Below are positions 1,862-49,433 of a DNA stretch of 64,000 bases, one piece after another. The notes beneath the pieces were generated by a model. That model made no database searches and was not told the origin of the DNA. It was given only the letters and a program-made list of their open reading frames with translations. The stretch comes from Gymnothorax reevesii. Taxonomy: Eukaryota; Chordata; Actinopteri; Anguilliformes; Muraenidae. Both the position numbers and the translations under genes were made by a program. How positions within the stretch are numbered: position 1 is the stretch's first letter; each line of letters starts with the position of its first letter. The DNA lies in the NCBI GenBank assembly GCA_029721435.1, contig CM056573.1, forward strand, positions 124,831,447 through 124,895,446. The letters run 5' to 3'.

Positions 1862-2289
1862 TGTTATGTGATATTGACCTTTTTTTGTTAAGCCTAGTCT
1901 GGAGCTTGCTTTGGGCATGTGCTGGGCATGTCTGAGAGGGGAAAGTCCCAGAGGGAAAAAAAAAAAAGTCTAAAAGGTGGGAGGGGGCTGTAAAAGAGTA
2001 TATAAGGAGAGAAATTGAGAGAGTAAAGTAGGAGCAGGAATTGCAAGGAGAAGGATACATTTGACCAGACCTGTCACTCTTTTCAAGACCTGTGAAGTTT
2101 TTTTTTGTGGATTTTTGCCTGTTTTGGAGCATTTTCCTGTCCCAGGACATCACCAAGCAACCCCATCGCAAAGGGACTGTAAATATCTTTTTTTATGTCA
2201 ATCTTGGTCAGTAGATTAGATTGTAAATTAGTTCAGTGCTTTGGTTTTATTTAATCTGTTCAGTTTTAAAATTTTGCCTGTCATCCCGG
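1862..2289 (+). repeat. 5' LTR of degraded Gmr1-like Gypsy copy
   Basis: The sequence aligns by eye to the 494 bp LTR of the full-length element at 43081. Shared landmarks are a TGT(T/A)ATGTGA start, the TTTTTTTGTTAAGC tract, a TATATAAG box at 1999-2006 and the CAGGACATCACCAAGC segment. It lacks the segment holding the CTCF-like motif after the first bases, and the distal end (after GTCATCCC) has been deleted into the leader. Divergence from the young LTR is clearly greater than that between the two young LTRs, so this copy is older. Confidence 0.85.
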
Positions 2290-2389
2290 GTTAGACCATT
2301 GTGTGAGTCATTTATTGAAAGCCAAATATTTCAAATTGTGAAATTGTTTTTTTGAATTTTCCTGGATATATATTGACAGATCAACAGCA

Positions 2390-5300
2390 ATGGATGATTT
2401 CTTGGCATCACCAACCGTAGAGGTTTTGAAGTCTTTTAAAAAGACAGAACTGCTAGAAATATGCAGACAGTTAGAGCTGACGGAGGTACAACCAGCCATG
2501 CAAAAAGCAAGAATGGCTAGGGAGACTGTTGAATATTACATTTTTGTGTTTGCACCAGGAGATCTGGAACAGTTTCCAGTGGAAAATCAAAATGAGATTT
2601 TGATTTAGAGAAGTTAGACAGAGAAGAAAGGCTCCAAATGGAGCAACTAAAAATTAAAATGGAAGTGGATAACAAATTTTGTGCTAGCTAAGAGGTTAAA
2701 CTGGTGCCCCCATTCTCCGAGAAGGAGGCTCATAAGTATTTCCAGTGTTTTGAAAAGGTAGCTAAGAGTTGTCAGTGGCCAATGGAATACTGGCCTCTGA
2801 TGTTGCAAACTTTCCTCAAGGGTAAAGCTCAACAAGCCTATTCGGCTTTGTCTGCAGATGATTCCTCTGATTATGAGGTTGTCATAAAGGTTATTTTGAG
2901 AGCTACTGAGTTGGTTCCAGAGGCTTACCGAAAGAAACTCAGAGGTCTGAAGAAATCTGACAATCAGACTTATGTGGAATTTGCTAACGAGAAGAAGGTT
3001 TGTTTTGAGTGCTGGTGTACTTCTATGGAAGTCAAGGATGATTTACACTCACTAAAAAGAGATGTTGTTAGTTGAGGAATTCAAGAACTGTGTTAAGGAT
3101 AATATTAAGACCTACCTTGATGAGAAGCAAGCAATTTGCATTCAGCTGCCAAATTTGCAGATGAATATGCTCTCACTCATATGTCCAAATTTCAATCTAG
3201 CAGTAACAATAGATTGTTCCAATTTCAGAAGAAAGGTAATGGTGATACCCAAGATTCCTCAGCCAAAAACAAAAACAAATCTGGTGATGGTGCTCAGAAA
3301 TCCAGTCGCAGGTCTGATCAAAGTGTGAAAGCTGACAGTGACAAAAGTGGTCTAGTTTGCAATTATTGCAAAAAATAAGGTCATGGTCAACTATGGTCAT
3401 ATGGTCAACTAACTGTTGATTCCTTAAAGTTAAGAAAGAAAAAGAAAAGGATACCAAAACAAATGCCTTTGTAAAGACAAGATTAGAAACCTCTGTAGTA
3501 GATGACTGATCTGCTAAATTGCCTGCTCCTTGTGGGGCTAGGAAGCCTGATATTGCTGACTTTGTGAGGGAGGAATTTCTTCCATTTGTGTCAGAGGGAT
3601 TTGTGGCTCTAAATTAGCATTCTCCTCCTGTGCCCATCTATATCCTAAGGGATACCAGAGCTTCTCAGTCACTTTTGTTGATGGACTCCTTGGAGTTACG
3701 TGATGAGACCACTTCTGGGATTTCATACTTGTTCAAGGTATTGAAGGGAGGACAGTATCTGTACCCCTGCACTCTATATTCTTGAAGTCAGATTTAGTTA
3801 CAGGACAGGTAAAGGTGGGAATTATGTCAAGTCTACCTATAAAGGGTGTTTCTCTGTTGCTAGGCAATGACCTGGCTGGGGGCAATGTAGTTCCCCCTGT
3901 TCATCTTACTCTCAGCGGTGCACTGAAGATGGTAACGAAGACCCATTTCTGTATCCTTCCTGTGTAGTGACCGATGCTATGGCCAAGAAGGCTCAAGAAG
4001 ATGATGATGCGGTGCCGTTCAGCACATCATGACTCAGGTGGTTCGCCTCATGACTCTGTTCGGCCTACTATGGTTTCTCCGTTTGAGGCTTATCAAACAC
4101 TTTTATCAGTTCTTTGTTCAGCCAGTCAGATGGGTCTGGTGATTCTGATGTGTCTGAAGACTTGTCTCTGTCCAGAAAGAGGTTGATTGAGGAGCAAACT
4201 AATGATCCTGATATTTGTGTTCTAAAGAGGAGAGCCTATCCTGATAAAGAAATAGACGCAGTTCCGGTTGGGTATTATCTCAAGGATGGTGTGTTGATGC
4301 GGCAGTGGCGCCCTCCTGATATCCCTTCCAATGCAGATTGGGCAATGGTCAGGCAAATTGTTCTTCCGAAGGTCTCCAAGAATGAGATCTTAACAATGGC
4401 TCATAGTTTACCTTTAGGAGGTCATCTTGGTGTTAACAAGACTTTTGATAAGATCATGAAACACTTCTTCTGGCCTGGACTTCGGAAAGATGTTAGTTTT
4501 CAATGCCTTGTTTTCATTTCCATGCTTTGCACTTTGTCTCCCCTTTGTGTACACTTTGTGTATCTTTGCTCACGGTCCCTTGTCTTGCGTGCCACTCATT
4601 CGGGTGATTTATTGGTTTCTGGGTTTCATTCTTCCTTCATTACCTTGTGTGCTTGCTTCCTCTCTCTTTTACTATCTACTAACCATACTAACAGTTTGTT
4701 GTTTTCGATAATTACTAACCCTCATTAACATTGTATATTTTTACTAACTTACTAATATGCTCTCGGGATTGTATAGCTGCACATACTAATTGACTAACAA
4801 TCTCTCAGCAGTCGCTCAATTCTAATCTCCGCCTCCTTGCCTATTCCTAATTATCTCTGCTGCAAGTTTCCTTGGATTTCCACTTATACTTGGTGGTTTC
4901 CTTTTCTTTTATCTTGGCACTTTAGTACTCCTTAACCGGAGCTGTTGTTTTGTACTTAGGTTTGTCTTGTGATCCCTGTCTGCGTTTTGGCAACAGCCAA
5001 GTTCATGTAATTAGTTTAGTCCTCATGTGTCTCTCCCTGATCATTGTTACCATTGATTGCACCTGTTCTCCCTGGTCATGTGTTTACCCCGGATGTGTAT
5101 ATAAGATATCTGTTTGGCTCACTCTCTTGTCAGATCGTTCTCCCTAGTTTTCTCGTGCCACGGTTCTCGCCTTGATTTTGCAGTGTTTATCTTTCTGACT
5201 GGACCGTCCTTGATATCGAGCTTTGCCTATTCCCTGTACTTTTGCCGCATTCTTGTTTTTTGACCTCTTTTGTCTGACTACGATTTTTGTTATTGGTGCC

Positions 5301-6131
5301 CTGTGTATGACTCTGGATTTCGCCCTTTGGATTCTGATTTTGGATTGCGGACTTTGTACTGTTGCCAGCTCTGTTGGGGGGTTTCCCCCTTCAGAAATAA
5401 AGCCTCCTTTTTTGTATTCTACTGGTTGTCGCACTTAGTTCATTTCATAAATTCCAACAGTGCTACTGTCACGTATCTTGGCTACGTCATAGGCCAGGGT
5501 CAGGTGGCACCCATAAATGCTAAAGTCCAAGCCATCATGGACTTTCCAGTTCCTGACAACAAAGCTTTGCGCTGCTTCCTTGGAATGATCGGGTACTACC
5601 GCAAGTTCTGCAAGAACTTTACTGAGATTGCTCTGTCTCACCAACCAACTGAAGAAAGGTGTAAAGTTCACCTGGGATGATGCATGCCAGAGAGCCTTCG
5701 ATCGCCTGAAGTCTCTGCTGTGTCACTTCCCCGTGCTCAAATATCCTGCCTTCAACAAACCGTTCTCCATCGCGGTTGATGCTAGTGACCAAGCTTGTGG
5801 ATCTGTGCTCCTACAGAGAAGTGACTCTGATGACATTGAGCATCCCGTGGCATACTTCTCCAGGAAGTTCATTCGCCACCAAAAGAACTATTCTACAGTT
5901 GAGAGGGAGCTTTTGGCTCTGTTTCTATCCTTAACACTGAGTTTTATGTTTGTACAGCACAAAAGCCAATGATTGTGTACACTGACCACAATCCGTTAAT
6001 GTTTTTGAGTAAGATGAAAAACAAGAATCTGAGATTTGATTTGGAGTTTGATTTTTACAGGAGTTTGACTTGGAAATTACGCATGTAAATGGTACTGACA
6101 ATGTAATTGCTGATTGCTTATTCCGTGTTTG
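2390..6131 (+). pseudogene. Degraded gag-pol of old Gmr1-like Gypsy retrotransposon
   Basis: This is a broken copy of the polyprotein encoded at 43691-48529. The frame starts at an ATG at 2390 with the same N-terminus (MDDFLASPTVEVLKSF). The charged coiled-coil stretch after residue 70 is mostly deleted. The SCAN-like Gag region (2704-3200) is recognisable but frameshifted and has stops, for example near 3063. The zinc knuckle (about 3357-3412) is disrupted by a stop and a short insertion, though the knuckle's last cysteine codon is still present. The protease triad region near 3650 reads DTRA rather than DTGA. The integrase zinc region is open from about 4114 to 4493, then homology stops. 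The rest of integrase and the first half of reverse transcriptase are missing and replaced by LTR-like sequence. Homology resumes at 5460 through the reverse transcriptase/RNase H connection and RNase H, ending at 6131. It cannot encode a working polyprotein. Its value is as an outgroup for reading changes in the young copy. Confidence 0.9.
4494..5459 (+). mobile_element. Solo-LTR-like insert replacing integrase/RT of the old copy
   Basis: Homology to the full-length element breaks at 4493 and resumes at 5460. The 966 bp between has a different origin. It begins just after or within a TGTTAG, ends in CCAACA, has a TATA-like TGTATATAAG around 5096-5105 and an AATAAA signal at 5396-5401 shortly before its end. 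That layout fits a solo LTR in sense orientation. About 1.8 kb of the host element is missing at the junction and I see no target duplication, so insertion was accompanied or followed by deletion, or the junction arose by recombination. Family not identified. Confidence 0.55.
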
Positions 6132-6212
6132 AATATGTTTATATATAAAGTGTTTATTAGCATCATGTATTATGTGTGTGTATATATACACAAGTGTCTA
6201 CTTAACTATTTT

Positions 6213-6544
6213 AGAGAAATTGAGAGAGTAAAGTAGTAAGAGAAATTGCAAGGAGGAGGATACATTTCACCAGACCTGTCACTCTTCAAGACCTGTGACA
6301 TGTGGTGGTTTTTTTTTTTTTTTTTTTTGTGCATTTTTGCCTGTGTTGGAGCAGTTTCCTGCCCCAGGACATCACCAAGCAACCCCATCTCAAAGGGACT
6401 GAATATCTTTTCATGTCGATCTTGGTCAGTAGATTAGATTGTACATTAGTTCAGTCCTTTGGTTTTATTAAATCTGTTAAGTTTCAAAATTTTGTCTGTC
6501 ATCCCTTTGCTGTCTTATTTGTCGTAACAAATTGGGGCCATAAA
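6213..6544 (+). repeat. 3' LTR (5'-truncated) of the degraded Gypsy copy
   Basis: Sequence from AGAAATTGAGAGAGTAAAG to ATTGGGGCCATAAA matches the downstream two thirds of the 43081/48635 LTRs. The U3 part with the TATA box is missing: the element passes from the 3' untranslated part directly into LTR sequence. A long poly-T run near 6307-6328 is an expansion of a shorter T run in the young LTR. No target duplication with the 5' side is evident. Confidence 0.8.
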
Positions 6545-34930: not shown

Positions 34931-35531
34931 GGTAACACTTTGTTTTAAGGGGTCACTGTTCCTGTGTATCTACCTAATTAATTACAGTGTAATTACCTAT
35001 GTAACTATATGTAATAACATGTACTTACATTGTACATACATAGTGTTTTTTGGTGTACTTAAAGGTCCTTGTTACACTTGTAATAAGGAATGCTTGTTAC
35101 AATACCTTGTCAAAGTGGCCTCTCTCTTTGGGGAAGGGGTACACCTGCAAGAAAAATGGGTGAAACCACAACCCATGTTGCCTGGGCAAACTTTTCCATC
35201 AATCTTCCTCCTGCCTCTTGAGTCTTGGAACATGTATGCTGTTACACAACTTAGTATATGTAACAGTCGTGTTAGTACACACTTGTTACTCTTTGATACA
35301 GTGGAATAAGCACATTAAAATAAAGTGTACCTGAGATACCTCAACTCTTATAAATTAACTGTGATAACCAGTGTCTTCAGTCTTGTACCACTTGTGCTGT
35401 TACACAACTTAGTATATGTAACAGTTGTGTAAATACGCCTTTGTTACTCCTTGATGCAGTGGAATGAGCACATTAAAGTGTACCTGCTGGGATAGAAACT
35501 GTAAACTGGTGTTGACCTTAGTACTCAAGTA

Positions 35532-37103
35532 CAAAACCCAAAACCAGTGAAGTTGGCACGTTATGTAAATCATAGATAAAAACAGAATGCAATGATTTGC
35601 AAATCCATTTCAACTTATATTCAATTGAATACACTGCAAAGACAAGATGTTTAATGTTCAAACTGAGAAACTTTATTTTTTTTTGCAAATAATCATTAAC
35701 TTAGAATATAAAGGCAGCAACACATTGCAAAAAAGTTGGCACAGGGGCCTTTTTACCGCTGTGTTACGTCGCCTTTCCTTTTAAGGACACTCAGTAAACG
35801 TTTGGGAACTGAGGAGACCAATTTTTGAAGCTTTTCAGGTGGAACTCATTCCCATTCTTGCTTGATGTACAGCTTAAGTTGTTCAACAGTCCGGGGTCTC
35901 CGTTGTCGTATTTTACGCTTCATAATCCGCCGCACATTTTCAATGGGAGACAGGTCTGGACTACAGGCAGGCCAGTCTAGTACCCGCACTCTTTTACTAC
36001 GGAGCCACGCTGTTGTAACACGTGCAGAATGTGGCTCGGCATTGTCTTGGTGAAATAAGCAGGGGCGTCCATGAAAAAGATGTTGCTTGGATGGCAACAT
36101 ATGTTGCTCCAAAACCTGTTTGTACCTTTCAGCATTAATGGTGCCTTCACATATGTGTAAGTTGCCCATGCCTTGGGCACTAATACACCCCCATACCATC
36201 ACAGATGCTGGCTTTTGAACTTTGCGCCTATAACAGTCCGGATGGTTCTTTTCCTCTTTGGTCCGGAGAACACGACGTCCACAGTTTCCCAAAGCAATTT
36301 GAAATGTGGACTCGTCAGACCACAGAACACTTTTCCACTTTGCATCAGTCCATCTGAGATGAGCCTGGGCCAAGCGAAGCCCGCAGCGTTTCTGGGTGCT
36401 GTTGATAAATGGCTTTCGTTTTGCATTGTAGAGTTTTAACTTGCACTAGCAGATGTAGTGACGAACTGTAGTTACTGACAGTAGTTCTCTGAAGTGTTCC
36501 TGAGCCCATGTGGTGATGTCCTTTACACACTGATGTCTGTTTTTGATGCAGTACCACCTGAGGGATCGAAGGTCATGGACATTCAATGTTGGTTTTCGGC
36601 CTTGTCGCTTATGTGCAGTGATTTCTCCAGATATTACGACTGTAGATGATGAAAACTCTAAATTTCTTGCAATAGCTCGTTGAGGAATGTTGTTAAACTG
36701 TTCGACAATTAGCTCATGCATTTGTTCACTAAGTGGTGACCCTCGCCCCACCCTTGTTTGTGAATGACTGAGCATTTCAGGGAAGCTGCTTTTATACCCA
36801 ATCATGGCACCCACCTGTTCCCAATTAGCCCGTTCACCTGTGGGATGTTCCAAATAAATGTTTGATGAGCATTTCTCAACTCTCTGTCTTTTTTGCCACT
36901 TGTGCCAGATTTTTTGAAACATGTTGCAGACATCAAATTCCAAATGAGCTAATATTTGCAAAAAATTACAAAGTTTACCGGCTCGAACATTAAGTAACTT
37001 GTCTTTGCAATTGAATATAGGTTGAAAAGGATTTGCAAATCATTGTATTCTGTTTTTATTTACGATTTCCACAACGTGCCATCTTCACTGGTTTTGGGTT
37101 TTG
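35532..37103 (-). mobile_element. Tc1-like transposon, nearly intact
   Basis: The terminal inverted repeats begin CAAAACCCAAAACCAGTGAA and extend about 130-150 bp inward, including GATTTGCAAATC and CAATTGAATA words in both. TA target duplications flank the element at 35530-35531 and 37104-37105. Length is 1,572 bp, typical for Tc1-like elements. The transposase frame is on the minus strand. The undisturbed target site is visible in the opposite arm of the surrounding palindrome at 37793-37794 (TACTTGAGTA context), which confirms a clean insertion. Confidence 0.9.
35846..36775 (-). pseudogene. Tc1-like transposase with one in-frame stop
   Basis: The encoded protein would cut and paste the surrounding element through its inverted repeats. 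The reading begins at an ATG at 36775; an upstream ATG at 36961 is also in frame but precedes the family's usual N-terminus. The N-terminal half carries helix-turn-helix-like DNA-binding sequence (PLSEQMHELIVEQFNN, then the RQGRKP linker). The C-terminal half has the catalytic core, with acidic residues in [13 protein letters not shown] and PIENVRR. The spacing between the second Asp and the Glu is 34 residues, the DD34E pattern of Tc1. A single TAG codon at 36446-36448 interrupts the frame just after the DNA-binding part; the frame is otherwise continuous to 35846. About 309 codons, slightly short of the usual 340. It is inactive as it stands, though only lightly decayed. Confidence 0.88.
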
Positions 37104-37830
37104 TATTTTTGCATCAAAAAGTAATTTCATTGAGTTATTCTTATTTGATTCCACCCTTTTGAATGTGATCAACCTAAACAGTGTTACAATCACAACTAGT
37201 TGACAACATAATGATTTACATTTTTATTACAAATAGTGTATTTCATTACAAATGGTGAAATCGTAACTCCAGTGTTATGTGACTATAAGCTATGTTATAA
37301 GTGATCTCAGTGTAGGTGTGTAAAAGTACTTTGTACCTGTAACCTATTTGAGTACATTTAAACATTACATAGAACTGAGTAAAATTTTAATTGATGTAAC
37401 TGTGGTATTGCCTTTTCTTTTTTAGGACTTTCTCTCTGTGAACTGACCCAACGTGTCCCCCTTTATCATGCTTGCTATGGTGTCGACCGCCACCTAAATG
37501 TTTACATGTCACACCTTGGGTCAGTTCACAGAGAAAAAGTTCTAACAAAAGAAAAGACAATACCAAAGTTACTCAGTTCTATGTAATGTTTAAATGTACT
37601 CAAATAGGTTACAGGTACAAAGGTACTGGAGTAACAATTTCACTATTTGTAATGAAAAACACTATTTGTATTAAAGATTTAAATCATTATGTTGTCAACT
37701 TGTTGTGATTGTAACACTGTTTAGGTTGATCACATTCAAAAGGTTGGAATCAAATAAGATTAACACAATGAAATTACTTTTTTATGCAAAAATACTTGAG
37801 TACCAAGGTCAACACCAGTTTACAGTTTCT

Positions 37831-38480
37831 ATCCCAGCAGGTACACTTTAATGTGCTAATTCCACTGTATCAAGGAGTAACAAAGGTGTATTTACACAAC
37901 TGTTACATATACTAAGTTGTGGGACAGCACAAGTGGTACAAGACTGAAGACACTGGTTATCACAGTTAATTTATAAGAGTTGAGGTATCTCAGGTACACT
38001 TTATTTTAATGTGCTTATTCCACTGTATCAAAGAGTAACAAGTGTGTACTAACACGACTGTTACATAGACTATGTTGTGTAACAGCACACGTGGTACACT
38101 ATCGAAGACACTGGTTATGGCAGTTAATGTGTAAGAGCTGTGGTATCCCAGCAGGTACACTTTAATGTGCTCATTCCACTGTATCAAGGAGTAACAAAGG
38201 TGAATTTACACAACTGTTACATATACTAAGTTGTGTAACAGCACAAGTGGTACAAGACTGAAGACACTGGTTATCACAGTTAATTTATAAGAGTTGAGGT
38301 ATCTCAGGTACACTTTATTTTAATGTGCTTATTCCACTGTATCAAAGAGTAACAAGTGTGTACTAACACGACTGTTACAAAGACTATGTTGTGTAACAGC
38401 ACACGTGGTACACTATTGAAGACACTGGTTATGGCAGTTAATGTGTAAGAGCTGTGGTATCCCAGCAGGTACACTTTATT
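37831..38480. repeat. 314 bp higher-order tandem repeat in the fold-back arm
   Basis: ATCCCAGCAGGTACACTTTA recurs at 37831, 38145 and 38459, exactly 314 bp apart. A variant (ATCTCAGGTACACTTTATTT) recurs midway at about 37987 and 38301, also 314 bp apart. The structure is therefore a dimer of about 157 bp monomers. The left arm near 35200-35490 holds fewer monomers. Confidence 0.85.
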
Positions 38481-38868
38481 TTAATGTGCTCATTCCACTG
38501 TATCAAGGAGTAACAAAGGTGTATTAACACAACTGTTTCGTATACTAAGTTGTGTAACAGCATACATGTTCCAAGACTCAAGAGGCAGGAGGAAGATTGA
38601 TGGAAAAGTTTGCCCAGGCAACATGGGTTGTGGTTTCATCCATTTTTCTTGCAGGTGTACCCCTTCCCCAAAGAGAGAGGCCACTTTGACAAGGTATTAT
38701 AACAAGCATTCCTTATTACAAGTGTAACAAGGACCTTTAAGTGCACCAAAATACACTATGTATTTACAATGCAAGTACATTTTATTACATATAGTTACAT
38801 AGGTAATTACACTGTAATTAATTAGGTAGATACACAGGAACAGTGACCCCTTAAAAGCAAGTGTTACC

Positions 38869-42936: not shown

Positions 42937-43097
42937 GACACAGTCTACACACGCACTCATGCGCCCGCATGCACACACGTCTCTCTCTCTCTGTCTCTCT
43001 CTCATACGTTGCAGACAGGGGTATTTGCAGTCAAAACCACTGCCGCAAAAGCGGCTACGGCTCTCAAAGTAATTTAATATTGTAATGTGAATATAGG

Positions 43098-43113
43098 CCA
43101 CTAGATGGCAGTA
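43098..43113 (+). promoter_or_regulatory. CTCF-core-like motif in 5' LTR
   Basis: CCACTAGATGGCAGTA fits the general CTCF core pattern (CCANNAG-N-NGGCRS). The match is by eye; binding is not shown. Confidence 0.4.
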
Positions 43114-43236
43114 TTCACCTTTTTTTTGTTAAGCTCAGACTGGAGTCATGTTTAGACATGTCCTGGACATGTCTGGGGCAAGTCTCAGAAAATAAAAAAA
43201 AAAGAGGTCTAAATGTGGGTGGGGTCTGCAAAAGAG

Positions 43237-43244
43237 TATATAAG
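43237..43244 (+). promoter_or_regulatory. LTR TATA box
   Basis: TATATAAG, conserved at the same offset (156 bases from the LTR start) in the 3' LTR (48791-48798) and present in the old LTR (1999-2006). Confidence 0.75.
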
Positions 43245-43577
43245 GAAAAGAATTGAGACAGTAAAGTAGTAGGAGAAATTGCAAGAAGATGACCAGACCT
43301 GCCATTCTGTTCAAGACCTGTGACATTTCTTTTGTGGATTTCTTTGCCTGTGTTTGAGCATTTTCTTCATCCAGGACATCACCAAGCCACCCCACCAAAA
43401 AGGGACTGTAATTATTTCTGTTTTTTCTTATTTATCAATCTTGGTCTTTAGTTGTAGGTTGTTATTAGTCTTTGTCTTTGTTAAAAATTAAATGTGTTTT
43501 AGTTGTTAAAACTGTGTTTGTCATCCCTTGCTGTTGTGTTGTTTTAAATGTAATAACAAATTGGGGCCATAACAAAT

Positions 43578-43598
43578 TGGGGGCTCAAGGTCCGGGAT
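43578..43598 (+). promoter_or_regulatory. Primer-binding-like site (tRNA-Pro type)
   Basis: Starting three bases after the 5' LTR, TGGGGGCTCAAGGTCCGGGA resembles a proline-tRNA primer site, with its first nine bases and the GTCCGGGAT block both present. Three extra bases (AAG) separate the two blocks. Confidence 0.6.
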
Positions 43599-43690
43599 AG
43601 ACCATTTTGTGAGTAATTTATTGAAAATCTAACATTTCAAATTGTAAAATTGATTTTTTTTAATTGAATACATATATATTGACAACAGCA

Positions 43691-46600
43691 ATGGATGATT
43701 TCTTGGCATCACCAACCGTAGGGGTTTTGAAGTCTTTTAAAAAGACAGAACTGCTAGAAATTTGCAGACATTTAGAGCTGACAGAGGTGAAACCAGCCAT
43801 GCGAAAAGCAAGACTGGCTAGAGAGATAGTTGAATATTACATTGATGAAAATGTGTTTGCACCAGGAGATTTGGAACAGTTTCCAGTGGAAAATCCAAAT
43901 ATAGAAATGGAACTTAAATTAAAAATGCTAGAGATTGAAAGGGAAGAAAAAGAAAAACAAAGGCAGTTTGAGTTAGAAAAATTAGCAAGAGAAGAGAAAA
44001 TTGAGAGGGAAGAAAAAGAAAAACAAAGAGAATTTGTGAGGGAAGAAAAAGAAAAACAAAGGCAGTTTGAGTTAGAAAAATTAGCAAGAGAAGAAAAACA
44101 AAGAGAATTTGAGAGAGAGAAAGAGGAAAGAGCAGAAAGAGAGAGACAGAGACAGAGAGATTTTGAATTAGAGAAATTCGATAGAGAAGAAAGACTCCAA
44201 ATGGAGAAACTAAAAATTAAAATTGAAACTAAAAATAAATTTTGTGCCAGTCAGGAGGTAAAACTGGTGCCTCCATTTTCAGAAAAGGATGTTGACAACT
44301 ATTTCCAGTGTTTTGAAAAGGTAGCAAAGAGTTGCCAGTGGCCAAAGGAACACTGGCCTCTGATGTTGCAAACTGTCCTCAAGGGTAAAGCTCAACAAGC
44401 CTATTCGGCTTTGTCTGCAGATGATTCCTCTGATTATGAGGTTGTCAAAAAGGTTATTTTGAGAGCTTATGAGTTGGTTCCAGAGGCTTACCGACAGAAA
44501 TTCAGAGGTCTGAAGAAATCTGAAAATCAGACTTATGTTGAATTTGCTTATGAAAAGCAGGTTTGCTTTGAGCGCTGGTGTACTTCTATGGAGGTCAAGG
44601 ATGATTTCAACTCACTAAAAGAGATGGTGTTAGTTGAAGAATTCAAGAACTGTGTTAAGGATGATCTTAAGACCTACCTTAATGAGAAGCAAGCACTGAA
44701 CTTGCAATCAGCTGCCAAATTTGCAGATGAATATGTTCTCACTCATAAGTCCAAATTTCAGTCTAGCAGTAACAATAAATGGTCCCAATTTCAGAAAAAG
44801 GGTTACGGTGATACCCAAGATTCCTCACCCAAAGACAAAGACAAATCTGGTGATGGTGCTCAGAAATCCAGTAACAGGTCTGATCGAAGTGTGAAAGCTG
44901 ACAGTGACAAAAGTGGTCTAGTTTGCAGTTATTGCAAGAAATCTGGTCATGTTACAACTAACGGTTGGTTCCTTAAAGCTAAGAAAGAAAAAGAAAAGGA
45001 TACCAAACCAAATGCCTTTGTGAAAACAAGGTTAGAAACCCCTGTAGTAGATAACCAATCTGCTAAATTGCCTGCTTCATGTGGGGCTAAAAAGCCTGAT
45101 ACAGCTGACTTCGTGAGGGAGGAATTTCTTCCATTTGTGTCAGAGGGATTTGTGGCTCTGAATGAGAATACTACTCCTGTCCCCATATATATCCTAAGGG
45201 ATACCGGAGCTTCTCAGTCACTTTTGTTGATGGACTCCTTGGAGTTACGTGATGAGACCGCTTCAGGGGATTTCATACTTGTACAAGGTATTGAAGGGAG
45301 GACTGTATCTGTACCCCTGCGCTCTATATTCTTGAAGTCAGATTTAGTTACAGGACAGGTAAAGGTGGGACTTATGTCAAGTCTACCTATAAAGGGTGTT
45401 TCTCTGTTGCTAGGCAATGACCTGGCTGGGGGCAAAGTAGTTCCCCCTGTACATCTTACTTCACAGCCGAGCACTGAAAATGGGGATGAGGACCCATCTC
45501 TGTATCCTTCTTGCGCAGTGACTCGTGCTATGGCCAAGAAGGCTAAAGAAGATGATGTTGTGGTGCCGTCCAGTACATTGAATAGTCAGGACTCAGGTGG
45601 TTCGCCTCATGACTCTGATTGGCCTACTATGGTTTCTCCGTTTGAGGACTTATCAGATACTTTTATCAGTTCTCTATTCAGCCAGCCGGATGGGTCTGGT
45701 GATTCTGATGTGTCTGGAGACTTGTCTCTGTCCAGAAAGCGGTTGATTGAGGAGCAAACTAATGATCCTGAAATTGGTGTACTAAAGAGGAGAGCCCTTC
45801 CTGAAAAAGAAATAGATGCAGTTCCAGTTGGGTATTATCTCAAGGATGGTGTGTTGATGCGGAAGTGGCGCCCTCCTGATATCCCTGCCAATGCAGATTG
45901 GGCAGTGGTCAGGCAAATTGTTGTTCCGAAGGTCTATAGGAATGAGATCTTAACAATGGCTCATAGTTTACCTTTAGGAGGTCATCTTGGTGTTAACAAG
46001 ACTGTTGATAAGATCATGAAACACTTCTTTTGGCCTGGGCTTCGGAAAGACGTTTCCAACTTTTGCAAAACCTGTCACACTTGTCAGGTAGTTGGAAAAC
46101 ACCAGTTAGACCCACCTGTAGCTCCATTGCAGCCTATCCCAGCATTTGGGGAGCCATTCTCTAGGGTCATTGTTGATTGCGTTGGTCCATTACCCAAGAC
46201 TAGATCTGGAAATCAGTACTTGTTGACAATCATGTGTGCATCTACCAGATTCCCCGAAGCCATACCTCTACGTAACATCAAGGCAACTGCAATCTCGAAG
46301 GCTTTGATAAAGTTCTTCACGTTGTTTGGCCTTCCCAGGGAAATTCAGTCAGACCAGGGTAGCAATTTCACTTCAGGATTGTTTCAGCAGGTTGTGTATG
46401 AACTAGGTGCAAAGCAGATTCTTTCTAGTGCCTATCATCCAGAAAGTCAGGGTGCCTTAGAGCGGTTTCATTCCACTCTCAAGACAATGATGAGGACTTA
46501 TTGTTATGACCATGAGAAAGACTGGGATGAAGGTGTTCATTTGCTGTTGTTTGCAGCTAGAGAAGCAGTGCAGGAGTCTACTGGATTCAGTCCATTTGAG

Positions 46601-48529
46601 CTAGTGTTTGGTCATGAAGTGAGAGGACCTTTGCTATTATTGAGTGAACAATGGCAAGAGGAAGAGCCGCACATTAGCCTGTTAGACTATGTTAGCAAGT
46701 TCAAGGAAAGATTGCGTGCAGCTTGTGACCTTGCCAAAGAGAACTTGAAATCAAGTCAGGGAAAAATGAAAACTTGGTATGATCATAAGGCTAGAAGCCG
46801 TGAGTTTAAACCAGGAGACAAGGTCCTTGTGTTGTTTCCCTTGCAGTCCAATCCATTGCAGGCTAGATTTCATGGTCCTTATGAAATTCTGACAAAACTC
46901 AATGATCTCAATTACATTGTGAAGACTCCAGATAGGAGAAAACCAAAACAATTGTGTCATATTAACATGCTAAAGCCTTATCATGACAGAAATGCTAGGG
47001 TTGCAGCTGTCACTTCAGATTCTCCAATGGTCGAAACGTGTGAAGATGAGGGGGAGTTTCAAGATGATGAACCAAGAATTAAAGCTGAAGTTCTTTCATG
47101 TAAATTGTCAAATACTGAAGTGTTGCAAAATCTTGATGTAAAACTCCAGCACTTAGAACCCTCACAGAGAGATCAGTTTGAAAGGTTGATCAAGAAATAT
47201 GAGGATTTGTTTCCTGATGTTCCAAAGAGAGTTACTATAGCCTCTCATGATGTAGATGTTGGTGATGCCAAACCAATAAAACAGCATCCATACCGGATGA
47301 ATCCTGAAAAGAGAAAGATTGCTGAGAAAGAGGTTGAGTACATGTTAAAACATGATATTATCAGACCCTCCAACTCCGATTGGAGTTCACCCTGTGTGCT
47401 AGTTCCAAAACCTGATGGAAGTACTAGATTCTGTACAGATTATCGCAAAGTCAATGCTGTAACTAGAACTGATGTGTTTCCAATACCTAGGATTGATGAT
47501 TGTATTGATAGTGTAGGGCAAGCAAAGTTTCTGACCAAGATTGATTTATTGAAGGGTTGTTGGTGTGTGCCTTTGGCTGGGAGGGCCGGGAGCATCTCTG
47601 CTTTTGCCACGCCGTCTGGATTGTGCCAGTGTGGGGTCCTGCCCTTTGGCGTGGGAGGTGCCCCGGCCACGTTCCGGGGGATGATGCGGTCTGCAGTCGC
47701 CGGATTGCCACACACGGGTGCGTGCATCGATGGCCTGGTCGCGTGGAGTGGCTCCTGGGGGGAGCATCTAGGGGATGTGGAGACGTTGTTCCAGCGCCTG
47801 ACCCGGGCTGGCCTGACTGTTGACCTGAGCGGGGGTGACTTTGGTTGTGCTGCTGTCACCTGTCTTGGCTGCGTCGTGGGCCAGGGTGGGGTGGCACCCG
47901 TGGATGCTGGAGTCCGGGCCATCATGGACTTTCCAGTTCCTGGCAACGGGGGAGCTTTGCGCCGCTTCCTTGGAGTGATCGGGTACTGCCGCGGGTTCTG
48001 CGGGAACTTTGCTGGGATTGCTCTCGGTCTAACTAACCAGCTGGGGAGGGGCGTGAAGTTCACCTGGGATGGTGCATGCCAGAGAGCCTTCGATCGCCTG
48101 GGGTCTCTGCTGTGTCGCTTCCCCGTGCTCGGATCTCCTGACTTCAACAAACCGTTCTCCATCGCGGTCGATGCTAGCGACCAAGCTTGTGGATCTGTGC
48201 TCCTACAGAGAAGTGACTCTGATGACATTGAGCATCCCGTGGCATACTTCTCCAGGAAGTTCAATCGCCACCAAAGGAACTATTCCACAATAGAGAAGGA
48301 ACTGTTGGCTCTGGTCCTTTCTTTACAACACTTTGAGGTTTATGTTTGTACAGGACAAAAGCCAATGATTGTGTACACTGACCACAATCCGTTAATGTTT
48401 TTGAGTAAGATGAAAAACAAGAATCGGAGATTGTTGAATTGGAGTTTGATTTTACAGGAGTTTGACTTGGAAATTAAGCATGTGAAGGGTACAGACAATG
48501 TAATTGCTGATTGCTTATCCCGTGTTTGA
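43691..48529 (+). CDS. Gag-Pol polyprotein, Gmr1-like order (PR-IN-RT-RH), RT disabled
   Basis: A single frame of 1,612 residues encodes the retrotransposon's structural and enzymatic proteins. I chose the ATG at 43691, not the in-frame one at 43664, because the old copy starts there too. Residue numbers count from 43664. Order: charged coiled coil (about 80-190); SCAN-like Gag region (about 204-362); zinc knuckle C421/C424/H429 whose fourth ligand position is Gly434; protease D513-T-G-A; integrase zinc site H767/H774/C804/C807 and D838/D897/E933 (DD35E); GPY/F-like module near 1070; reverse transcriptase with motif-A D1294; RNase H from about 1500 (D1503). At the reverse-transcriptase double-aspartate site, Asp1356 is kept but the next residue is Gly1357. 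Many further changes of Tyr-to-Cys, Lys-to-Gly, Glu-to-Gly and Thr-to-Ala type crowd residues 1299-1490. The frame is intact, but reverse transcription is unlikely to work. Confidence 0.93.
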   Translation: MDDFLASPTVGVLKSFKKTELLEICRHLELTEVKPAMRKARLAREIVEYYIDENVFAPGDLEQFPVENPNIEMELKLKMLEIEREEKEKQRQFELEKLAREEKIEREEKEKQREFVREEKEKQRQFELEKLAREEKQREFEREKEERAERERQRQRDFELEKFDREERLQMEKLKIKIETKNKFCASQEVKLVPPFSEKDVDNYFQCFEKVAKSCQWPKEHWPLMLQTVLKGKAQQAYSALSADDSSDYEVVKKVILRAYELVPEAYRQKFRGLKKSENQTYVEFAYEKQVCFERWCTSMEVKDDFNSLKEMVLVEEFKNCVKDDLKTYLNEKQALNLQSAAKFADEYVLTHKSKFQSSSNNKWSQFQKKGYGDTQDSSPKDKDKSGDGAQKSSNRSDRSVKADSDKSGLVCSYCKKSGHVTTNGWFLKAKKEKEKDTKPNAFVKTRLETPVVDNQSAKLPASCGAKKPDTADFVREEFLPFVSEGFVALNENTTPVPIYILRDTGASQSLLLMDSLELRDETASGDFILVQGIEGRTVSVPLRSIFLKSDLVTGQVKVGLMSSLPIKGVSLLLGNDLAGGKVVPPVHLTSQPSTENGDEDPSLYPSCAVTRAMAKKAKEDDVVVPSSTLNSQDSGGSPHDSDWPTMVSPFEDLSDTFISSLFSQPDGSGDSDVSGDLSLSRKRLIEEQTNDPEIGVLKRRALPEKEIDAVPVGYYLKDGVLMRKWRPPDIPANADWAVVRQIVVPKVYRNEILTMAHSLPLGGHLGVNKTVDKIMKHFFWPGLRKDVSNFCKTCHTCQVVGKHQLDPPVAPLQPIPAFGEPFSRVIVDCVGPLPKTRSGNQYLLTIMCASTRFPEAIPLRNIKATAISKALIKFFTLFGLPREIQSDQGSNFTSGLFQQVVYELGAKQILSSAYHPESQGALERFHSTLKTMMRTYCYDHEKDWDEGVHLLLFAAREAVQESTGFSPFELVFGHEVRGPLLLLSEQWQEEEPHISLLDYVSKFKERLRAACDLAKENLKSSQGKMKTWYDHKARSREFKPGDKVLVLFPLQSNPLQARFHGPYEILTKLNDLNYIVKTPDRRKPKQLCHINMLKPYHDRNARVAAVTSDSPMVETCEDEGEFQDDEPRIKAEVLSCKLSNTEVLQNLDVKLQHLEPSQRDQFERLIKKYEDLFPDVPKRVTIASHDVDVGDAKPIKQHPYRMNPEKRKIAEKEVEYMLKHDIIRPSNSDWSSPCVLVPKPDGSTRFCTDYRKVNAVTRTDVFPIPRIDDCIDSVGQAKFLTKIDLLKGCWCVPLAGRAGSISAFATPSGLCQCGVLPFGVGGAPATFRGMMRSAVAGLPHTGACIDGLVAWSGSWGEHLGDVETLFQRLTRAGLTVDLSGGDFGCAAVTCLGCVVGQGGVAPVDAGVRAIMDFPVPGNGGALRRFLGVIGYCRGFCGNFAGIALGLTNQLGRGVKFTWDGACQRAFDRLGSLLCRFPVLGSPDFNKPFSIAVDASDQACGSVLLQRSDSDDIEHPVAYFSRKFNRHQRNYSTIEKELLALVLSLQHFEVYVCTGQKPMIVYTDHNPLMFLSKMKNKNRRLLNWSLILQEFDLEIKHVKGTDNVIADCLSRV
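43930..44235 (+). repeat. Internal coding repeat: charged coiled-coil segment of Gag
   Basis: A unit reading roughly EREEKEKQRQFELEKLARE occurs two to three times in tandem with partial copies; the DNA repeats (GGGAAGAAAAAGAAAAACAA) are nearly identical. The result is a Glu/Lys/Arg-rich helix predicted to form a coiled coil. The old copy lacks nearly all of this segment. Confidence 0.8.
47558..48133 (+). other. Clustered A-to-G hypermutated patch in the RT region
   Basis: Across 47581-48060 I count about 56 A in 480 bases (about 12%), against 20 A in 60 bases just upstream (47401-47460). Aligned by eye to the old copy over 47858-48133 / 5460-5745, roughly 35 positions are A in the old copy and G here, with only about two T-to-C and a few other differences. 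Downstream of 48133 the two copies differ only sporadically, and the Gag regions I compared show no such bias. Amino-acid changes are those A-to-G produces. Boundaries are sharp at both sides. The cause is an inference (see findings). Confidence 0.85.
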
Positions 48530-48622
48530 ATGTGTATGATATGTATATATAGACAAGTGTTCACTTTACCATTTTGTATTGAAAAGAAAAATTTTGCCTT
48601 TATGAGTCAAAATTTTTCCCTT

Positions 48623-48634
48623 TTGGAATGGAGG
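48623..48634 (+). promoter_or_regulatory. Polypurine tract before 3' LTR
   Basis: GGAATGGAGG ends immediately at the 3' LTR start, preceded by a T-rich run; this is the expected plus-strand primer position. Confidence 0.65.
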
Positions 48635-49128
48635 TGTAATGTGAATATAGGCCACTAGATGGCAGTATTCACCTTTTTTTTGTTAAGCTCAGACTGGAGT
48701 CATGTTTAGACATGTCCTGGACATGTCTGGGGCAAGTCTCAGAAAATTAAAAAAAAAGTGGTCTAAATGTGGGTGGGGTCTGCAAAAGAGTATATAAGGA
48801 AAAGAGTTGAGACAGTAAAGTAGTAGGAGAAATTGCAAGAAGATGACCAGACCTGCCATTCTGTTCAAGACCTGTGACATTTCTTTTGTGGATTTCTTTG
48901 CCTGTGTTTGAGCATTTTCTTCATCCAGGACATCACCAAGCCACCCCACCAAAAAGGGACTGTAATTATTTCTGTTTTTTCTTATTTATCAATCTTGGTC
49001 TTTAGTTGTAGGTTGTTATTAGTCTTTGTCTTTGTTAAAAATTAAATGTGTTTTAGTTGTTAAAACTGTGTTTGTCATCCCTTGCTGTTGTGTTGTTTTA
49101 AATGTAATAACAAATTGGGGCCATAACA
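48635..49128 (+). repeat. 3' LTR
   Basis: 494 bp, the same length as the 5' LTR and almost identical to it. TATA box at 48791-48798 and CTCF-like motif at 48652-48667. The following ATAT is the target duplication. Confidence 0.95.
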
Positions 49129-49433
49129 ATATCAAAACTCACTTAAGTGTTATAACAGAAGTTCAAAAATTTGATATAGCATAGAAAGCACTTTCAGAAA
49201 AAGTAATGGACGGATGGACTCATATCTTTTACTGACATGGAATACCATTCATTGCTAACATCAGAGCCGTGGTTTTAGTGTTAAGGACAGAGCTGTGCAG
49301 CCAGGTGGTCTCTCCTCTCCAGTGAGCGCTGCTGCTCTCCCTGCTGCTATGGCACATGCAGTTCGCCCTCTCTCTGTCTCAAGTCCTGTAATGTCCCCTG
49401 CGTGAGGTCACAGTGACATCCATGGTGTACAGC

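Follow-up and report, generated by a model that had tools for sequence, protein, structure and literature searches.

A one-sided A-to-G patch in an LTR retrotransposon of Gymnothorax reevesii, very probably left by ADAR-type RNA editing

The 64,000 nt of Gymnothorax reevesii DNA studied here, called the window in the following (positions 124831447-124895446 of contig CM056573.1 in the 2.17 Gb, 421-contig assembly GCA_029721435.1), contain a putative Gmr1-like Ty3/gypsy long terminal repeat (LTR) retrotransposon, the reverse transcriptase (RT) region of which carries a sharply bounded patch of A-to-G changes. We consider it very probable that this patch is the DNA footprint of ADAR-type A-to-I hyperediting of the sense RNA of the element, followed by reverse transcription and germline integration. 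Direct support comes from the one-sidedness of the sense A-to-G change, a neighbour preference that follows the ADAR 5′ rule, sharp edges that are specific to each copy, repeated events in the same genome and an insertion that is clean and flanked by a target-site duplication.

The A-to-G patch in the window copy

In line with the A depletion pointed out in a preliminary description of the window, A makes up 11.1% of the bases in 47558-48133, compared with 33.2% in the preceding and 28.0% in the following 600 bp. Against an older, decayed copy of the same family in the window, 36 A>G, 2 T>C and 4 other changes were measured over 282 aligned bases of 47847-48133, close to the approximately 35 A>G and 2 T>C counted before, and 2 A>G and 5 T>C over the 391 aligned bases of 48134-48530. 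A clearer reference is the column majority of 28 of the 29 other copies from the same genome (L008, with a 2-base gap, was left out). Relative to this majority, 88 of the 151 A in 47559-48132 are replaced by G and no other change is present, T>C, A>C and T>G all being zero, while the rest of 47000-48633 differs by a single change, C>T at 47113. Compared copy by copy with the 29 others, the patch shows 82-89 A>G and 0-3 other changes.

The edges are as sharp as originally described, the first and last edited bases (47559 and 48132, 574 bp) each lying 1 bp further inside. Versus copy L018, A>G was found at none of the 183 A on the upstream side and none of the 146 A on the downstream side, which bears out that the flanks are nearly unchanged, and T>C at 0 of 142 T inside the patch (Fisher test of A>G versus T>C, 5e-34).

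A G-rich stretch might also derive from a GC-rich segment, ancestral or acquired by recombination, or from GC-biased gene conversion, and exchange between copies is possible in the RT sequence that hosts the patch. However, the patch is common to no other copy examined: 28 copies have G at only 0-6 of the A positions of the span, and when the native patch was used as a genome probe, the best other match among the 40 of 1021 candidates scored was 90%, to L051, a copy with an A>G pattern of its own. Gene conversion of this kind is also at odds with the zero counts of T>C, A>C and T>G. Neither a G-rich patch shared within the family nor a balanced T-to-C excess, the two outcomes that the preliminary description had named as speaking against editing, was thus found, and an origin by ancestry, recombination or conversion is hardly credible.

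Edited copies elsewhere in the genome and their neighbour preference

Eleven matches to the native-patch probe (L051-L061), from the same 40 scored candidates, were read over ~1.6 kb; several probe matches exceeded 84.7%, the identity expected if the 88 edits were the only differences. The counts of A>G and T>C were 99/4 in L051, 77/3 in L052, 73/2 in L053, 44/0 in L054, 124/1 in L055, 36/0 in L056, 70/2 in L057, 23/2 in L058, 12/2 in L059, 36/2 in L060 and 111/0 in L061, so that 10 of the 11 copies are clearly edited and L059 is weak. A further copy, L085, matched by an integrase-region probe over 0.76 kb, has 28 A>G and 2 T>C, with all A>G at 46705-46983. The patches differ in where they begin and end. 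In L055 the patch extends over 46886-47686, preceded by isolated A>G at 46694 and 46705, and 45800-46599 has A>G at 0 of its 210 A. In L061 there are two, 46228-47196 and 48131-48503, separated by a stretch with six A>G, and 45800-46199 has A>G at 0 of its 102 A.

All of this evidence comes from one assembly and is at the assembly level, as would be the case for a sequencing or assembly artefact. The window copy and 11 others are, however, spread over 8 contigs and both strands, differ in their sites and edges and obey one neighbour rule; whether a copy lies on the minus strand, as do L052, L055, L057, L060 and L085, or on the plus strand, the A>G is in every case on the sense strand of the element. 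Since the window copy also bears a target-site duplication, an artefact appears extremely unlikely.

Among the 131-bp pieces of 20 further matches to the native-patch probe, which lie inside the probe span, 8 have at least 3 and 10 have at least 1 A>G, and there is one non-A>G change in total (A>T). Matches to a probe made from L061 reached 85-92% versus an unedited baseline of 83.4% (40 of 840 candidates scored, the probe itself aside), and matches to one made from L055 81-87% versus 80.9% (40 of 1018), most of them being judged by identity only against baselines that could shift with sublineage differences. The window copy and 29 others (9 of these only from 45400) were also scanned for clusters of at least 4 changes of one type per 100 bp, and no T>C, C>T or G>A cluster was found. 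L026, otherwise unedited, has four A>G per 100 bp from 46894, possibly a light patch. The A>G clusters of L031, L032, L040, L044 and L046 (~43956-44105) were discarded as alignment artefacts, the tandem repeat at this place also giving A>T, G>T, T>A and T>G clusters. The gag region of the window copy contains a direct repeat of ~60 bp (43940-44000 and 44039-44098), which confuses the alignment between copies. Summed over the 29 copies, there are 163 A>G, 55 T>C and 124 G>A; the excess of A>G over T>C may reflect further light editing and is partly due to the tandem repeat and to five sites shared by three copies, described below. Six repeat pairs within the window, two of which compare the old with the new copy, showed no one-sided A>G, the numbers being small in most.

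For the analysis of neighbours, we pooled 12 segments of 11 copies, bounded by us from their A>G runs; the pool leaves out L059, L085 and the upstream parts of L055 and L061. In this pool, 713 of 1602 A were changed to G, compared with 2/1444 for T>C, 9/1266 for G>A and 8/1292 for C>T. APOBEC editing, which the preliminary description had set aside because of its direction, found no support in the pooled G>A count or in the scan, which gave no G>A cluster.

The edited fraction depended on the 5′ base: 167/242 (0.69) after T, 319/503 (0.63) after A, 145/408 (0.36) after C and 82/449 (0.18) after G, or 0.67, 0.62, 0.34 and 0.17 with the window copy removed. A logistic fit with copy effects gave log-odds relative to 5′ G of 2.6 for T, 2.2 for A and 1.0 for C (standard errors ≤0.2), and 0 of 2000 within-copy permutations attained the observed 5′ T/A excess. 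On the 3′ side, the log-odds relative to T were 0.43 for A, 0.22 for G and -0.07 for C, with standard errors of 0.16-0.18 each. Human ADAR1 and ADAR2 are described in PMC11019741 as having the 5′ preference U>A>C>G and the 3′ preferences G>C~A>U and G>C>U~A, respectively; the same source gives, after Bass, 40-50% conversion for perfect double-stranded RNA over ~50 bp. Both the 5′ order and the conversion level of the pooled copies fit this rule. The preliminary description had looked to both neighbours of the edited A for an ADAR preference, and of these the 5′ side yielded the order T>A>C>G, whereas the 3′ effect was weak, with A and G above C and T. The 5′ preference and the independent A>G patches in other copies support the ADAR-type reading that it had proposed.

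The same order bears on error-prone reverse transcription, in which skewed nucleotide pools or a faulty RT would have misread A over one stretch with no editing enzyme involved. RT under pool imbalance can indeed give one-sided, clustered transitions, and the insertion looks young. However, the order T>A>C>G recurs across copies and equals the ADAR rule as stated in PMC11019741, and ~60% conversion in the window patch with no other change and an abrupt stop would be unexpected from pool imbalance. We therefore regard misreading by RT as quite unlikely.

A possible route from edited RNA into the germ line

According to the proposed sequence of events, the sense (genomic) RNA of the Gmr1-like element would have paired in part with complementary RNA, an ADAR-family enzyme would have converted roughly half of the A within the duplex to inosine, RT supplied in trans or made before editing would have read inosine as G, and the resulting complementary DNA (cDNA) would have integrated in the germ line. 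The same events would have occurred independently in other copies of the family in this genome. The patch edges may represent the ends of the duplex or points at which RT switched between an edited and an unedited RNA template; the two patches of L061 fit either gaps and ends of a duplex or template switching. We infer ADAR as the enzyme, editing ahead of minus-strand synthesis and antisense RNA acting in trans as the partner.

The presence of A>G without T>C places the alteration either in the sense RNA or in plus-strand DNA, and the near-absence of T>C disfavours editing of minus-strand cDNA, since this would give T>C. DNA rather than RNA could have been edited, the target being either the DNA strand of an RNA-DNA hybrid, for ADAR, or plus-strand DNA, for a DNA adenine deaminase. 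A 2021 review records ADAR editing of DNA in model hybrids and gives the editing of retroviral DNA by ADAR as unknown (PMC12925331). A minus-strand target predicts sense T>C, against the 2/1444 T changed compared with 713/1602 A, an argument that spares plus-strand DNA; overall, DNA editing seems very unlikely to us.

RNA duplexes are the normal substrate of ADAR. A hairpin over the patch had been considered in the preliminary description. The predicted fold of the patch strand is better than those of shuffled sequences (z -3.4) and consists of interrupted stems only, and no long inverted repeat covering the patch was found in a full copy, in which the best inverted self-match spans 91 columns at 64% and lies in the LTR. 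The 559 bases preceding the patch have a fold z of -0.9, although L055 is edited there. Given the interrupted stems and the weak fold upstream, where L055 is edited, we prefer a duplex that would have formed in trans, the partner being antisense transcripts from other copies. Deaminase exons (PF02137) are present at 8 loci in the genome, with ADAR, ADAD and ADAT counted together.

Several observations weigh against an origin by RNA editing. The further edited copies were all found with edited probes and hence were chosen for shared G. A control count, which supports editing, was made outside the probe span in all eleven matches read over ~1.6 kb, including the upstream pieces of L055 and L061, and gave A>G 526/4210, T>C 19/4009, G>A 27/3041 and C>T 25/2422; 27 reference copies, over 47000-48633 outside the span, gave 7/8883, 6/8505, 11/6264 and 5/4914, respectively. 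This control reaches outside the probe span only, and L055 (141) and L061 (192) supply 333 of its 526 A>G, with 1 from L056 and 0 from L059. Edited sites overlapped between copies 636 times versus 569 expected from the 5′-neighbour rates, 12% above expectation; the sharing of sites is mostly site preference, and the slight excess fits a wider sequence preference or a bias of the probe. The 3′ effect is an exact match to neither ADAR1 nor ADAR2, and ordinary changes are present in the older edited copies as well, with 5 to 35 non-A>G changes in total per copy over 1.6 kb. An antisense match to the region was not found within the window beyond chance (best E 0.22), and the case rests on genomic DNA, from which both the editing and the antisense partner are predicted.

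At the protein level, 54 of 458 residues differ between the window copy and L018, including 13 K>G, 7 Y>C and 4 each of T>A, E>G, Q>R, I>V and D>G; one D>N difference belongs to L018, as it recurs in L009 and L027 versus L018. The frame remains open because A>G cannot create stop codons. The RT active site, YIDD in L018, reads CIDG in the window copy and, given these altered residues, the edited RNA was most likely copied by RT translated from unedited RNA. None of the 120 protein relatives listed has more than 8 of the 54 changed residues.

Three other copies, L002, L003 and L011, have five A>G in RT in common (47588, 47631, 47654, 47655 and 47657), and their common RT changes include adjacent K>G and N>D. 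They are separate insertions, with dissimilar flanks and the duplications ACCC, CCTA and GGAT. The simplest reading may be that a lightly edited template gave rise to three or more insertions; however, the number of changes is small, and ordinary variation between sublineages could account for the cluster. As the source of the 86% patch-probe matches this cluster was rejected, all five sites occurring together in 0 of the 20 short pieces. Tentatively, and with somewhat more doubt than confidence, we suggest that ADAR may be a recurrent germline mutator of this family, which inactivates new copies (YIDD to CIDG) and whose lightly edited templates at times re-transpose and found sublineages. If true, RNA editing would feed heritable variation into the genome.

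The element and its relation to known systems

The window element (43081-49128) is a clean insertion flanked by a 4-bp ATAT duplication (Table 1), and it looks young, as its LTRs differ at 3 of 495 aligned columns. The domain order in its frame is SCAN-like gag, H2C2, rve integrase, p58_C and then RT and RNase H, with Pfam matches to PF02023, PF17921, PF00665, PF22938, PF17917 and PF17919; the gag part (43694-46100) matches the SCAN domain (PF02023, E 9e-11). With rve at ~46154-46441, the RT active site at 47723 and RNase H downstream, integrase lies upstream of RT/RNase H. A query boundary at 47551 cuts through the RT domain, which makes the missing RT match there uninformative; PF00078, the RT domain, is present in homologues of the 47153-48526 piece. 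Integrase before RT and a SCAN-like gag are, we presume, marks of Gmr1-like Ty3/gypsy elements, and the window element would belong to these by its domain order and gag type. Elsewhere in the window, 35846-37039 has open frames that resemble a Tc1/mariner-type transposase (by eye only), with nearby repeat copies in 34931-38868.

Table 1 Features of the edited retrotransposon and of a related copy in the window
Feature	Position	Strand	Basis
5′ target-site duplication ATAT, 4 bp	43077..43080	.	equals 49129-49132
5′ LTR, TG...CA	43081..43574	+	self-BLAST, 99.4% versus 48635-49129
Single open gag-pol frame, 1621 aa stop to stop	43664..48529	+	frame reading and Pfam
A-to-G patch, probably hyperedited	47559..48132	+	88/151 A to G versus 28-copy column majority
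RT active-site motif	47723..47734	+	YIDD in L018, CIDG in window copy
3′ LTR, TG...CA	48635..49128	+	self-BLAST and LTR alignment
3′ target-site duplication ATAT, 4 bp	49129..49132	.	equals 43077-43080
Older decayed copy, same family	1872..6543	+	first comparison partner

Hyperediting can seldom be seen after the RNA has disappeared; in the present case, it would be archived in the DNA of repeated copies, and the reach of ADAR-type action on germline transposons would become readable from an assembly. This would add ADAR to APOBEC as a deaminase with heritable scars in vertebrate genomes and would imply that element RNA met complementary RNA prior to reverse transcription. Whether mobile elements are restrained or made more diverse by RNA editing also becomes a testable question.

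A survey from 2016 that dealt with DNA editing in vertebrate LTR elements was reportedly centred on APOBEC, and no report of recurrent A-to-G edited genomic LTR retrotransposons was found among the titles and abstract openings listed, with subscription journals mostly outside the scope. What is unusual in comparison with Gmr1-like elements is the editing and not the type of element; here, too, integrase precedes RT and the gag is SCAN-like, presumably the marks of such elements. Both ADAR-type hypermutation of retroviruses and APOBEC scars in retrotransposons are already known, as described in PMC12925331 and PMC2873906. The former source names Rous-associated virus, avian leukosis virus, human T-cell leukaemia virus type 2 (HTLV-2) and simian T-cell leukaemia virus type 3 (STLV-3) as A-to-G hypermutated and attributes this to ADARs, with nearly 50% of A changed in the avian cases (PMC12925331). 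The fish copies resemble these viruses, as described there, in the clustering of A-to-G, and differ in being germline LTR retrotransposon copies that were affected repeatedly, in the pol region. APOBEC-type editing of LTR retrotransposons is reported to leave G-to-A clusters in DNA (PMC2873906), one-sided like the patch described here; unlike these scars, which arise via minus-strand DNA, the change in the fish is A-to-G, for which RNA editing is the best explanation. ADAR hyperediting of repeat transcripts, the substrate of which is duplex RNA, is likewise known, in outline, to give dense A-to-G changes with G rare on their 5′ side, but whereas such hyperediting normally appears as RNA-DNA differences, the pattern in Gymnothorax reevesii is fixed in DNA.
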